The notes: generated from the letters alone by a model not told the origin. Counted from the first letter of the stretch, positions 1-4,608 are shown. The stretch: 64,000 bases of DNA from Bradyrhizobium sp. (GCF_016219575.1 NZ_JACRMG010000009.1:620001-684000); one strand, 5' to 3'. Made by a program: numbers and translations.

Positions 1-219
1 TCCAGACGCATGGTGGCGCGCGATTTCTCCGGCGCGTCGTTCACGGCAGCGCTGCGCCACAAGGATGCGGCATATGCGGTGCGGCTTGCCGAGGAGCTGC
101 TGCCCGGCGTACCCGTTAGTCGCGCCGCGCTCGTGGCCTATGAAGAGGCGAAGGCCTCCGCGCCCGACGACGACGAAGGCAAGATGATCGAGATCGTCTC
201 GCGGCCGAAGCAGAGCTAG
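1..219 (+). CDS. NAD(P)-dependent oxidoreductase, 3-hydroxyisobutyrate dehydrogenase-like, C-terminal fragment (5' end outside window)
   Basis: Frame open from base 1; MVARDFSGASFTAALRHKDAAYAVRLAEELL resembles the C-terminal NAD-binding_11 domain of the HIBADH family. Confidence 0.65.
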   Translation, partial: SRRMVARDFSGASFTAALRHKDAAYAVRLAEELLPGVPVSRAALVAYEEAKASAPDDDEGKMIEIVSRPKQS

Positions 220-403
220 TTCGGTCCATTTCCTGCGCTGCCTGCGGCGCGTGTCCGACGCCGATCCCTTTGCGATGGAGAGCATTGGATACTGATCGGT
301 CCGGACGCTTGTGCAGCGCATCATTTGCAACCGCTGTTGACGACCGCATCGCGCCGGGCGACCCTGTCATCGAGGTGTCATACAAGGCGCTGCGGTCGGA
401 GCG

Positions 404-2647
404 ATGTCAGGCCAGATTCCCGTCTACGATCTCGACCATATTCACGATTGTTCCGCGTCCGAGCTGCGCCTGCGCCTTGGCGGCAAGGGCGCCGGCCTTG
501 TCGAGATGCGCCAGAAGCTCGGGCTTCCGGTGCCCCACGCCTTCGTTCTTTCGACCGCGCTATGCCGCCAGTATCTCACATCGGGCTGGCCCGACGGCCT
601 CGACGAGGTGATCGACCGGAAGCTTGCGGCGCTCGAAAGCGCGACGTGGCAAGGCTTCGGCGACAGCGAACGGCCGCTGCTGGTCTCCGTCCGTTCGGGC
701 GCGCCGGTGTCGATGCCGGGGATGATGGATACGATCCTCAATCTCGGCGCCAACGCCGTGACGATAGCAGGCCTTGCCGCGCGAACCGGCGACGAGCGCT
801 TCGCGCTCGATACCTGGGCACGCTTCTGCCGGATGTATGCCGGAACAGTGCTCGGCGTTGGACGCGAAAAGCTCGGTGAGAACCTGCCGCGCGAGGCATC
901 TGCAGCGGTGCTGCGCGCGGATATCGACCGGGTGCGAGACATTTGCGCGCGGGAGGGGACGCCGATCCCGGACAATGCGCGCACGCAACTGCGCGGCGCG
1001 ATCGAGGCCGTATTCCGTTCGAGCCGTTCGGAGCGCGCGCGGGTGTATTGCGAGCGCGAGGGGCTTGGCGAGGAGATGCCGACCGCAGTCCTGGTGCAAG
1101 CCATGGCGTTCGGAAATCTCGGCGTGTCGTCAGGCACCGGCGTCGCTTTCTCGCGCAATCCGTCGACCGGCGGAAACGAAACCTACGGTGACTTTCTCGC
1201 CAATGCCCAAGGCGAGGATGTTGTCGCCGGCATTCGTGCGAGTCGCCCGCTTGCGGCAATGCGCGAGACCCTGCCGGAGGTTCATGACGAGCTCGGCGAG
1301 GTGTTGCGCCGAATCGAGCGGCATTATCGCGACCTCTGCGACGTCGAATTCACGGTGCAGGAGGGGCGGCTGCAGATCCTGCAGGTGCGGGCCGGCAAGC
1401 GCTCCGCAATTGCCGCAGCTCGGATCGCGATCGATCTTGCGAATGAGGGGCTGATCTCGCGCGAAGAGGCCGTGCGCCGAGTGTCCGCGGAACAGCTGCG
1501 GCAGCTCAAGTCGATGGCCAGGGTGCGCGACGGCGCAACCGCGATTGCCTCGGGCGTCGCTGCGTCTCCGGGCGTGGTGTCGGGCGTCATCTGTCTTGAC
1601 CCGGATCGTGTCGCCGATCTCGCGGCAGGCGGCAGCAACGTCATCCTGGTCCGGCCGACGACGTCGCCCGAGGATGTGCACGGGATGGCGCAGGCGGCGG
1701 GCATCGTCACCGCAACCGGGGGCATGGTGAGTCATGCGGCGCTGGTTGCGCGCGGTTGGGGCATCGCCGCGGTCTGCGGCGTCGAAGCCCTGCAGTTGGC
1801 GCCTGCCTTGAGCATCGCGGGAAAGCGGCTGGAGGTGGGCGCGCGCCTGACCATCGATGGCACAGCCGGAAAGATCTATCTCGGAGAATGCGTGGAGGCA
1901 GGACATGGGGAGCCGCCTGAACTCGAGACCCTGCGGCGTTGGGCGGCGGAAGCCGGGCTTCCGTTGGGTGGAGAAGAAGACATAGGAGCGGCGCCGGGGA
2001 CAGACGCGGCCGAGGACAGCGGGACTTGCGACATCGGCGGCTTTGCCGTCGTTCGAGCGCTGGCGCTGCTTGGCTTTGCGACGGCCGAGCGCGTTGCCAT
2101 TGCACTGGCCACGTCACCGGACGCCGTCGACGGGGTGCTGAAATCCTTGCCGCAGACTTACATCAGCAAAGCGCCGCGCGGCCTTCATGTGACCCCCGAA
2201 GGGCGCGCGTGGTTGCAGGGGCAGCTCAAGGCGGAGCGTGACAGCATCGATCGACGCGCGGCCGAACGGCTCTACGGGAATTTCATGGCGCTGGACGCAC
2301 GCTTCAAGCAGCTCGTTGCCGACTGGCAGATCAAGCTGATTGGCGGCAGGCAGGTTCCGAATGATCACACTGACGCCGCCTACGACGCCGCGATCCGCGC
2401 GCGGCTCGCCGACTTCCACCAGGCGACGCTCGCCCTCTTGCCTGACATCCTGACGCTGGTGCCTCGCCTGAGGCCATTTGCGACGCGCCTTGCGCATGCG
2501 GCAAGAGCCGTTGCCGCGGGCGACTGCACCATGATCGCAAGCCCGTTGAAGGACAGCTATCACACCGCCTGGTTCGAGCTGCATGAGGAGCTGATTCATC
2601 TGGCCGGCCGGGATCGCGCAATCGAGGAGGCGAGGTCGGGCGGGTAA
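404..2647 (+). CDS. PPDK-like protein: ATP-grasp (PPDK N-terminal) + swivelling phospho-His domain + extra C-terminal domain; no PEP/pyruvate TIM barrel
   Basis: GGKGAGLVEM, SVRSGAPVSMPGMMDTILNLG, GTGVAFSRNPSTGG and TGGMVSHAALVARGWG motifs; last ~230 aa do not look like a PEP-binding barrel. Confidence 0.85.
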   Translation: MSGQIPVYDLDHIHDCSASELRLRLGGKGAGLVEMRQKLGLPVPHAFVLSTALCRQYLTSGWPDGLDEVIDRKLAALESATWQGFGDSERPLLVSVRSGAPVSMPGMMDTILNLGANAVTIAGLAARTGDERFALDTWARFCRMYAGTVLGVGREKLGENLPREASAAVLRADIDRVRDICAREGTPIPDNARTQLRGAIEAVFRSSRSERARVYCEREGLGEEMPTAVLVQAMAFGNLGVSSGTGVAFSRNPSTGGNETYGDFLANAQGEDVVAGIRASRPLAAMRETLPEVHDELGEVLRRIERHYRDLCDVEFTVQEGRLQILQVRAGKRSAIAAARIAIDLANEGLISREEAVRRVSAEQLRQLKSMARVRDGATAIASGVAASPGVVSGVICLDPDRVADLAAGGSNVILVRPTTSPEDVHGMAQAAGIVTATGGMVSHAALVARGWGIAAVCGVEALQLAPALSIAGKRLEVGARLTIDGTAGKIYLGECVEAGHGEPPELETLRRWAAEAGLPLGGEEDIGAAPGTDAAEDSGTCDIGGFAVVRALALLGFATAERVAIALATSPDAVDGVLKSLPQTYISKAPRGLHVTPEGRAWLQGQLKAERDSIDRRAAERLYGNFMALDARFKQLVADWQIKLIGGRQVPNDHTDAAYDAAIRARLADFHQATLALLPDILTLVPRLRPFATRLAHAARAVAAGDCTMIASPLKDSYHTAWFELHEELIHLAGRDRAIEEARSGG

Positions 2648-2722
2648 GAAAGCCGGAACAGGTCACATGGCCGGCAACAACAAGAACGGGCCGGACGCAG
2701 AGCTCACAGGGGAGGACTTCAA

Positions 2723-4498
2723 ATGACAAGCACGCATTGGCTCGTCGAAGGCAGGATCGACCCGCGTTGGCCGATCAACACGCGCGGCAATATCGGCGAG
2801 GTCTTTCCGGAGGTTCTGACGCCGCTGTCCTACACTCTCGGCGTGCTCTCGGCCGAAGCCGGCTGGCGCGATGCCTACCGGCAGATGGGCGTCCTGCAGC
2901 GCAATGACTTCAAGAACGACGATCCCGTCATCATCGGGCTCTACGCCGGCTACGGTTATCTGAACGTCTCCTATCTGCGCATGATCGGCGTAAGGGCGCC
3001 GGGCTCCTCGCCCGAGGCGATCGATGCCACGCTGTTCGGTGAAGGCAACCCGCCGCCCTATGTGCCGCGCAAGGGTGACAAGAGCCTGTTGTCCACGCTG
3101 AAAATCCTGCTCACGGTGATCAAGGCGCTCGGGACCAAGTCCGAGCCGCGGGTGGTCGGGGAGAGTTACCGGCTGGTTGCCGACTGGGAAGCGAAGTGCC
3201 CGCCGCTCGATGCTCCGGACGAAGCGCTCTTGGCCTATATGGCCGCGTTTCCGCCGGTGTTCCGCCAGATCTTCCGCAACCACATCATGTCGAGCTCGGT
3301 CGCCGCTATCGTCTCGGGAATTCTTGCCGACGCCGCCAAGGCCGCGGGTGAACCTGGCCTGGCGACCCATTTGATCGGCGCGGCCGGCGACGTGCTGTCG
3401 GCCTCCTACGCGCAGGAGCTTTACGAGATCGCAAAGCTTGTCCGCGCCAGTCCGGCACTGACGACCGCTTTCGATGCCGGCACGTCGGGATTGTACGACC
3501 GGCTGAAGCCGATGCCCGAGGCTGCCGCGTTCAACAGTCAATTCGCGGCGTTCCTCGACCGCCACGGCCATCGCGGCCCGAACGACTGGGAGCTGTCGTC
3601 GCGTACCTGGGAGAACACCCCGGAACTGGCGCTGGTCGCGATCGATCGCATGCGGCTCGCAGGGCATGACCTCACGCCGGCGCTGCGGCTGAAGGACATG
3701 GAGGCCCGGCAGCTGGCAGCGATCGAAAAAGTGCTGCCGCACGTCAAGTTCATGGACAAGGGCAACGTCAGGAAAGCCGTCAAGGCGCTGCCGTACTGGT
3801 CGCGGGCCCGTGAGGCGACGCGCGATCGTGCGGTGCGTACGGGCGCCACATTGAAGCGCGTGTTCCGCGAGCTGGTGCGGCGCGCCGCGCAAAGGGGCGG
3901 CATCGAGGACCCGCGCATGGTCGCGATGCTGGGCTTCCACGACGAATTGCCGGAGTACCTCAGGGATCCGCGCAGACTCGTGCCCGTCATCAGGGAGCGC
4001 TGGGCGCTGCGCGAGCGGTTTGCCGCGGTGACGCCGCCGTTCTTCATCAACTCGCAGGACGAGGTGCCGGGGATCGAGGAGATGGAAGCTGCGCAAGGCA
4101 AGGACAGGCCAAAGGCTGTCGTGGCCGGCGACGTACTGAAGGGCGACGGCGGCTCGGCCGGCGTCGCGCGCGGCCGCGCCCGCATCGTGCTCGATCCCTC
4201 CGATGCACGCGGCCTCAATCCCGGCGACATACTGGTGGCCCCGATGACCGATCCCGCCTGGACGCCGTTGTTCCTCCCGGCGGGTGCGGTGGTCGTCAAT
4301 GTCGGCGCACTCATGAGCCACGCCGTCATCGTCTCGCGCGAGCTCGGCATTCCCTGCGTGGTAGCGGTCGCGGCCGCCACCGATCGGATCGCCGATGGCA
4401 CGATGATCGAGGTCGACGGCACCGCCGGCACGGTGCGTGTGCTCGAAACGTCTGCTGCAAGGGAGCCCGCCGATGTCCGCTCAGCCGCGGCGAAGTAA
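2723..4498 (+). CDS. PEP-utilising enzyme/rifampin-phosphotransferase-like protein: substrate-binding-like region + C-terminal phospho-His swivelling domain, lacking ATP-grasp
   Basis: C-terminal ILVAPMTDPAWTPLFLPAGAVVVNVGALMSHAVIVSRELGIPCVV motif; no ATP-grasp motifs; follows the upstream gene by 75 nt. Confidence 0.8.
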   Translation: MTSTHWLVEGRIDPRWPINTRGNIGEVFPEVLTPLSYTLGVLSAEAGWRDAYRQMGVLQRNDFKNDDPVIIGLYAGYGYLNVSYLRMIGVRAPGSSPEAIDATLFGEGNPPPYVPRKGDKSLLSTLKILLTVIKALGTKSEPRVVGESYRLVADWEAKCPPLDAPDEALLAYMAAFPPVFRQIFRNHIMSSSVAAIVSGILADAAKAAGEPGLATHLIGAAGDVLSASYAQELYEIAKLVRASPALTTAFDAGTSGLYDRLKPMPEAAAFNSQFAAFLDRHGHRGPNDWELSSRTWENTPELALVAIDRMRLAGHDLTPALRLKDMEARQLAAIEKVLPHVKFMDKGNVRKAVKALPYWSRAREATRDRAVRTGATLKRVFRELVRRAAQRGGIEDPRMVAMLGFHDELPEYLRDPRRLVPVIRERWALRERFAAVTPPFFINSQDEVPGIEEMEAAQGKDRPKAVVAGDVLKGDGGSAGVARGRARIVLDPSDARGLNPGDILVAPMTDPAWTPLFLPAGAVVVNVGALMSHAVIVSRELGIPCVVAVAAATDRIADGTMIEVDGTAGTVRVLETSAAREPADVRSAAAK

Positions 4499-4608
4499 AG
4501 CGGGTTAGACCGCGCAGTCTTGCCGCCGAAACAGCCGTCGGAAATCGGGTGGACACCGGCTGTTGCCCGGTCTAGCCGTGGGCGCGAGATCACTCGTTGG
4601 CAGGAAGA

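Follow-up and report, generated by a model that had tools for sequence, protein, structure and literature searches.

A PPDK-derived protein and a rifampin phosphotransferase-like partner as a putative two-swivel phosphotransferase in a Bradyrhizobium insertion

Two adjacent genes at positions 404 to 4498 of a 64,000-nucleotide stretch of Bradyrhizobium sp. DNA (NZ_JACRMG010000009.1:620001-684000, hereafter the window) each encode a protein with a phosphohistidine-bearing swivel domain. We refer to them as gene A and gene B, to the third domain of A as C, and to compared genome loci by L-numbers (e.g. L036). It is reasonably probable that the two proteins act as a single ATP-driven small-molecule phosphotransferase with a two-swivel relay, wherein the A-C fusion would be the phosphoryl donor and B the acceptor. 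The initial annotation of this region had proposed an ATP-dependent phosphotransferase divided over two subunits, each with a swivel of its own, and the domain assignments support that proposal, A being predicted to carry an ATP-grasp and a swivel and B a substrate body and a swivel. The pair links three subjects that are not connected in the papers cited here: dikinases that act on small molecules in aromatic catabolism, the virulence kinase VadK, which derives from pyruvate phosphate dikinase (PPDK), and the unexplained phosphoenolpyruvate (PEP)-utilizer protein Rv2047c.

Domains and catalytic residues of A and B

Gene A (404..2647, plus strand) encodes a protein of 747 residues in which open reading frame calling, Pfam, NCBIfam and alignment to PPDK structures identify a PPDK-type ATP-grasp, a swivel and a fused C domain. 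The ATP-grasp half, covering about residues 1-370 (404..1513, plus strand), carries K28, R97, D313, E315, Q327 and R329. The swivel (PEP-utilizers) domain, delimited by Pfam at about residues 381-496 (1544..1891, plus strand), carries the phosphohistidine residue H444 (codon 1733..1735, plus strand). Alignment matches these residues, in the same order, to K22, R92, D321, E323, Q335, R337 and H455 of PPDK. Pfam reports PPDK_N (9.6e-40) and PEP-utilizers (1.9e-20), and the NCBIfam model for PPDK, TIGR01828, scores 526.8 bits (E 9e-158, residues 18-516), compared with 77.5 bits for the PEP synthase model TIGR01418. With 475.3 bits, A also lies above the cut-off of 456 for the short-PPDK family NF004531 (PRK05878), and PPDK crystal structures align with its residues 20-513 (E ~1e-113).

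Thus, A resembles PPDK over its approximately 513 N-terminal residues and in its catalytic residues, and differs from it at the regulatory Thr453, which is Val442 in A, and in the absence of the PEP/pyruvate barrel. PF02896, the family for this barrel, was not reported in A at E values up to 1, and residues 540-747 form the C domain instead. The fact that H444 is invariant across 30 A-type/PPDK sequences suggests that the swivel of A is not decaying. The view of gene A as encoding a PPDK-type ATP-grasp and a phosphohistidine but no PEP barrel is therefore borne out, and the check for loss of ATP-grasp catalytic residues found all seven listed above, H444 included, to be present. At the level of sequence, these comparisons confirm that A is the ATP-grasp and phosphohistidine half of PPDK, with all tested catalytic residues kept and no PEP barrel. 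A full-length PPDK is separately present in the same genome (contig C29). There is also a second short PPDK (G000:C28; L016:8410-10038), a 542-residue protein with an ATP-grasp and a swivel that has neither a barrel nor C, has no B nearby, and is encoded directly 3′ of a 647-residue gene that appears DUF47-like by eye.

Gene B (2723..4498, plus strand) lies on the same strand as A after a 75-nucleotide gap and is preceded by a good ribosome-binding site, GGGGAGGA. Open reading frame calling, Pfam and fold comparison describe its 591-residue product as an RPH-like substrate body plus a swivel. Pfam reports only PEP-utilizers (4.3e-22), at residues 471-576 (4133..4450, plus strand), and no ATP-grasp. 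The phosphohistidine residue H533 (codon 4319..4321, plus strand) is invariant across 42 B sequences. An AlphaFold model of B (pLDDT 92) matches rifampin phosphotransferase (RPH) over its length (5fbt, E 1.4e-20, TM 0.70) and matches PPDK only in the swivel. The second gene had been described as lacking an ATP-grasp and carrying an RPH-like body with a second phosphohistidine, and this description agrees with the Pfam result, with H533 and with the model. For A and B alike, the matches are much stronger than chance would give. The predicted fold of B thus corresponds to the substrate and swivel domains of RPH, whereas RPH is a single chain with its own ATP-grasp and is about 18% identical to B, such that rifampin is not implied as a substrate.

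Among NCBIfam models, B is similar to RedH, PRK06241 and RPH, in each case to the C-terminal portion. Its best score is for RedH (159.8 bits, as opposed to 138.6 bits for RPH), a ranking that would agree with a pair that makes a phosphorylated intermediate for condensation, as the prodigiosin ligases PigC and RedH do, rather than a stable phosphate ester. However, both scores are far below the family cut-offs (999 for RPH, NF041857) and no biosynthetic partner genes are seen at the locus, and we regard a ligase function as very improbable.

The C domain (residues 540-747 of A; 2021..2644, plus strand) comprises a winged helix and a helical part and is homologous to free-standing genes of approximately 200 codons. 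The earlier two-domain description of gene A holds as far as it went, but it overlooked this third domain, which makes up about the last 205 residues. C matches a 206-residue gene product encoded directly ahead of a short PPDK gene on a Diaphorobacter plasmid, a 210-residue 'MarR' gene product from a gene cluster of Rhodococcus pyridinivorans, and, on another Rhodococcus plasmid, the C-terminus of an AMP-binding protein adjoining a short PPDK. Indeed, a free-standing C gene adjoins short-PPDK genes in many actinobacteria. No family in Pfam or NCBIfam covers C. Its predicted model is confident (pLDDT 95), but a fold search against the PDB gave no whole-fold match and nothing with an E value below 0.001, the N-terminal part alone matching winged-helix fragments; a profile search against PDB sequences gave weak MarR/MntR N-terminal matches. 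In an alignment of 33 C sequences, W102, Q103, S179, H181, W184, E186 and H188 (domain numbering) are invariant.

Co-occurrence, gene order and origin of the module

Relatives of B were gathered by scanning species genomes with a B alignment. The nearest of these, 60-64% identical, come from six Acidimicrobiales/Actinomycetota metagenome-assembled genomes, and in the tree the window B is nested in an Acidimicrobiales clade (100/100). The window A groups with all other A-C fusions (95/92), nearer to canonical PPDK, and the mycobacterial A proteins fall in the other main branch. Such fusions are present at L115, L117, L118, L133 and L134, and at L036, from one of the six metagenome-assembled genomes, where an A-C fusion and a P450 lie 2 kb beyond B.

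Of 42 genomes selected because they encode a stand-alone or epimerase-fused B, 37 contain C; of eight with single-chain RPH-like enzymes, one does. In this comparison, related genomes are not independent and several are incomplete metagenome-assembled genomes. An unselected sample of 247 actinobacteria contains C in 26 genomes. These include all seven genomes with a stand-alone B of at least 370 bits (chance about 6e-8, ignoring phylogeny), a threshold picked after the scores were seen, with one 564-residue B at 315 bits lacking C. They also include all six genomes with a short A (chance about 8e-7, again ignoring phylogeny), in five of which C adjoins A. The genes occur in the order C-A-B (L069, L141), in the order A-C-B with C and B overlapping by 4 nucleotides (L142), and as an A-C fusion plus B (L036 and the window), and B divergent from C also occurs. 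Co-conservation of the two genes, a check proposed in the initial annotation, is seen in other genomes, where A, B and C both co-occur and co-cluster.

The relatives adjoin genes for P450, alcohol dehydrogenase, FMO, Rieske, PrpF plus amidohydrolase, SurE or acyl-CoA functions. These neighbors suggest that at least some relatives help to degrade hydrophobic or aromatic compounds. Proteins of the DUF7065/DUF7064 families are repeatedly encoded next to B or A-C (L031:7890-8804, L141:5127-6011, L195:440-1444) and may belong to the same pathways. The Mycobacterium avium plasmid pP7a (L032, 206175-225740) has a stretch of 18 kb with three B genes, all of them adjoining a hypothetical protein of approximately 300-350 residues, together with aminoglycoside/ecdysteroid-kinase-like genes and no A within the stretch.

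In the window, the A-B pair occupies an insertion of approximately 4.3 kb, from about 204 to 4534. Its left edge, GCCGAAGCAG, lies at the end of HIBADH (204..213, plus strand), and its right edge, GCCGAAACAG, is identical to the left at 9 of 10 positions and marks where the genus sequence resumes (4525..4534, plus strand). Three of the four congeners compared have GCCGAAATAG at the site where the insertion has its GCCGAAGCAG/GCCGAAACAG flanks. No other B or C was found in the genome, and full-length B was not found in other genomes of the order sample. By comparison with these genomes, the A-B module is a horizontal acquisition from outside the genus.

The genes upstream, named by eye from sequence, are rne, amiC, mrcA, prfB and HIBADH. 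HIBADH follows prfB in the 29 congener loci inspected, with EamA next in most, and the A-B pair is absent there. Because congeners that lack the pair have prfB, HIBADH and EamA side by side, HIBADH was part of the locus before the insertion, and the earlier suggestion that this dehydrogenase might be a partner is not upheld; EamA was rejected as a pathway partner on the same grounds. Neither the locus itself nor the 14 kb upstream of it shows a P450 or phosphohydrolase partner, and the window locus has no P450, FMO, Rieske, PrpF-amidohydrolase or acyl-CoA type cluster of the kind found beside relatives. The phenolic substrate raised in the initial annotation is therefore only a possibility for this pair. 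P450s encoded elsewhere in the genome are at most 45% identical to the P450 beside the L036 A-C fusion, which indicates no specific link.

Phosphoryl transfer between two swivel domains

In the mechanism we propose, the ATP-grasp of A would cleave ATP and phosphorylate A's own swivel at H444. The phosphoryl group would then pass to the B swivel at H533, most likely through a His-to-His relay or, alternatively, directly from the ATP-grasp of A. Finally, with the B swivel as carrier, the group would arrive at the RPH-like body and be transferred there to a hydroxyl of a probably hydrophobic small molecule. A relay from the A histidine to the B histidine to substrate is favored because the histidine of A is never lost. 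Where PPDK has its PEP barrel, A would instead have C as a dedicated partner, which is fused to it in the window but encoded by a gene of its own in mycobacteria and Nocardia. C would stabilize A and/or dock it to its acceptor, a role proposed on the basis of the fusion, the adjacency of the separate genes, and the purification of VadK.

In M. asiaticum and two genomes whose gene order is almost the same, the gene that scores best against NF004531 has C immediately after it, just as Rv1127c (VadK) is described with its operon partner Rv1126c (PMC13400623). From this gene order and that description, we infer that the mycobacterial C gene is Rv1126c. VadK autophosphorylates on His422, and its phosphohistidine is required for growth on propionate; Rv1126c improves the solubility of VadK, and a 2 M NaCl wash is needed to separate the two (PMC13400623). 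The mycobacterial proteins resemble A-C in that a PPDK ATP-grasp and swivel are present without a PEP barrel, A itself scoring above the PRK05878/NF004531 cut-off, and in that the immediate neighbor of the mycobacterial A gene is the counterpart of C. They differ in that A-C is one protein in the window, with an RPH-like B in the same insertion, whereas VadK belongs to the other tree branch from the window A and is described as a regulatory kinase without an RPH-like partner.

The two-component dikinases HpeHI, CreHI and PpsAB, which phosphorylate phenolic hydroxyls and to the latter two of which the initial annotation had likened the pair, also consist of two polypeptides, one with the ATP-grasp and one with an RPH-like body plus a swivel whose histidine is essential. 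The body subunits HpeH, CreH and PpsA are about 45% identical among themselves. In these systems, however, the ATP-grasp subunit (about 40 kDa) is of the PEP-synthase type and has no swivel, such that the system has a single swivel (PMC12167813), and no C is present. The suggested kinship is therefore only loosely supported, holding for the division of ATP-grasp and body plus swivel between separate polypeptides, but not for A, which is of the PPDK type with its own swivel and C. Judging from the domain assignments, the PPDK-type ATP-grasp, the swivel in each subunit and the C domain set the pair apart from HpeHI, CreHI and PpsAB.

The pair might nevertheless operate exactly as HpeHI or PpsAB do, with the ATP-grasp of A phosphorylating the B swivel directly and the swivel of A being a PPDK leftover or only regulatory. 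The known systems need only one swivel (PMC12167813), and B has the RPH-like body and swivel that this scheme requires. Yet H444 is invariant in the 30 sequences, and its VadK equivalent is a site of autophosphorylation that the bacterium requires to grow on propionate (PMC13400623). Moreover, the loci of HpeHI/PpsAB architecture examined (L174, L175 and L179) have an ATP-grasp gene of 288-302 codons without a swivel, have no C, and match B only in part, at 27-30% identity. Taken together, we consider direct transfer unlikely, although it is the main rival of the relay.

VadK has been proposed to be a regulatory kinase; PrpC and PrpD were recovered with it by co-immunoprecipitation, and it has an effect on flux through the methylcitrate cycle (PMC13400623). 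If A were likewise a regulatory protein-histidine kinase acting on central-metabolism enzymes, then the adjacency of B would be secondary. This we judge improbable, given that A and B share one insertion, that A-C-B and C-A-B operons recur, and that no methylcitrate genes are seen near the A-B pair.

Several points weigh against a two-swivel A-B phosphotransferase. HpeHI works with one swivel only, meaning that a second is not chemically required (PMC12167813). VadK is reported to interact with methylcitrate-cycle enzymes, and neither Rv1126c nor Rv2047c is among the filtered co-immunoprecipitation hits (PMC13400623). B lies far from A in many genomes, where the pairing rests on co-occurrence, and the case for the pair is built from homology, co-occurrence and predicted folds. 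In addition, C paralogues exist far from any A in Acidimicrobiia (L121, L122, L124 and L127; also L119 and L126). The genes for these stand-alone C proteins come immediately ahead of those for dapA and ribonuclease J and are in many cases preceded by dapB and a SURF1-like gene (names by eye), and their occurrence in this dapB-dapA region away from A indicates that C has some other role too.

Mycobacterial and alphaproteobacterial relatives

The VadK study notes that M. tuberculosis encodes no pyruvate-binding domain with which VadK could be completed; Rv2047c, a B-type protein that carries a swivel itself, goes unmentioned there (PMC13400623). In M. asiaticum and the two similar genomes, an epimerase-B protein is encoded directly downstream of a large polyketide synthase, as Rv2047c is beside pks12, and M. 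asiaticum has a second A and a second epimerase-B in one cluster. In published transposon sequencing, rv1127c and rv2047c are both listed as required when mycobactin is present, whereas neither is required with carboxymycobactin, hemin or hemoglobin alone (PMC7058343), a pattern that fits a shared pathway for the two genes. By analogy with B, Rv2047c-type epimerase-B proteins are candidate acceptors for VadK, and the kinship of A-C with VadK and Rv1126c suggests where the phosphate of VadK may go.

C was found in 8 of 384 other alphaproteobacteria. In these clusters, A is accompanied by a swivel-His protein that stands alone (136-138 or 248-260 residues, PF00391) and by a protein of 470-520 residues that has no Pfam family and no detectable similarity to the body of B. 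Some of these clusters add biotin-dependent carboxylase genes or DUF7065/7064 proteins. A free-standing phosphocarrier beside A and C is what a relay would be predicted to look like.

Histidine-phosphorylated donors that hand phosphate to a second histidine carrier are familiar from enzyme I and HPr of the phosphotransferase system. The resemblance is offered as an analogy only, and the donor here would be ATP rather than PEP. The wider family might accordingly use A plus C as a reusable, general ATP-driven histidine phosphoryl donor that serves interchangeable acceptors by His-to-His transfer. These acceptors would be RPH-like B, Rv2047c-type epimerase-B proteins in mycobacteria and free-standing swivel proteins in alphaproteobacteria; VadK would be one such donor, with Rv2047c or a similar protein as its acceptor. 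We advance this generalization tentatively and with less confidence than the A-B pairing itself.

At the alphaproteobacterial loci L189-L193, A, C (where complete) and the free-standing swivel-His protein are accompanied by AMP-ligase and biotin carboxylase genes, an assembly suggestive of a pathway in which phosphorylation is combined with carboxylation, broadly as in the Hpe pathway. L194, L195 and L196 combine A and C with a swivel-only protein of 136-138 residues (SGAPESHLGI) and a protein of approximately 470 residues without a Pfam family, and at L195 a methane-monooxygenase-gamma/EthD protein is encoded downstream.

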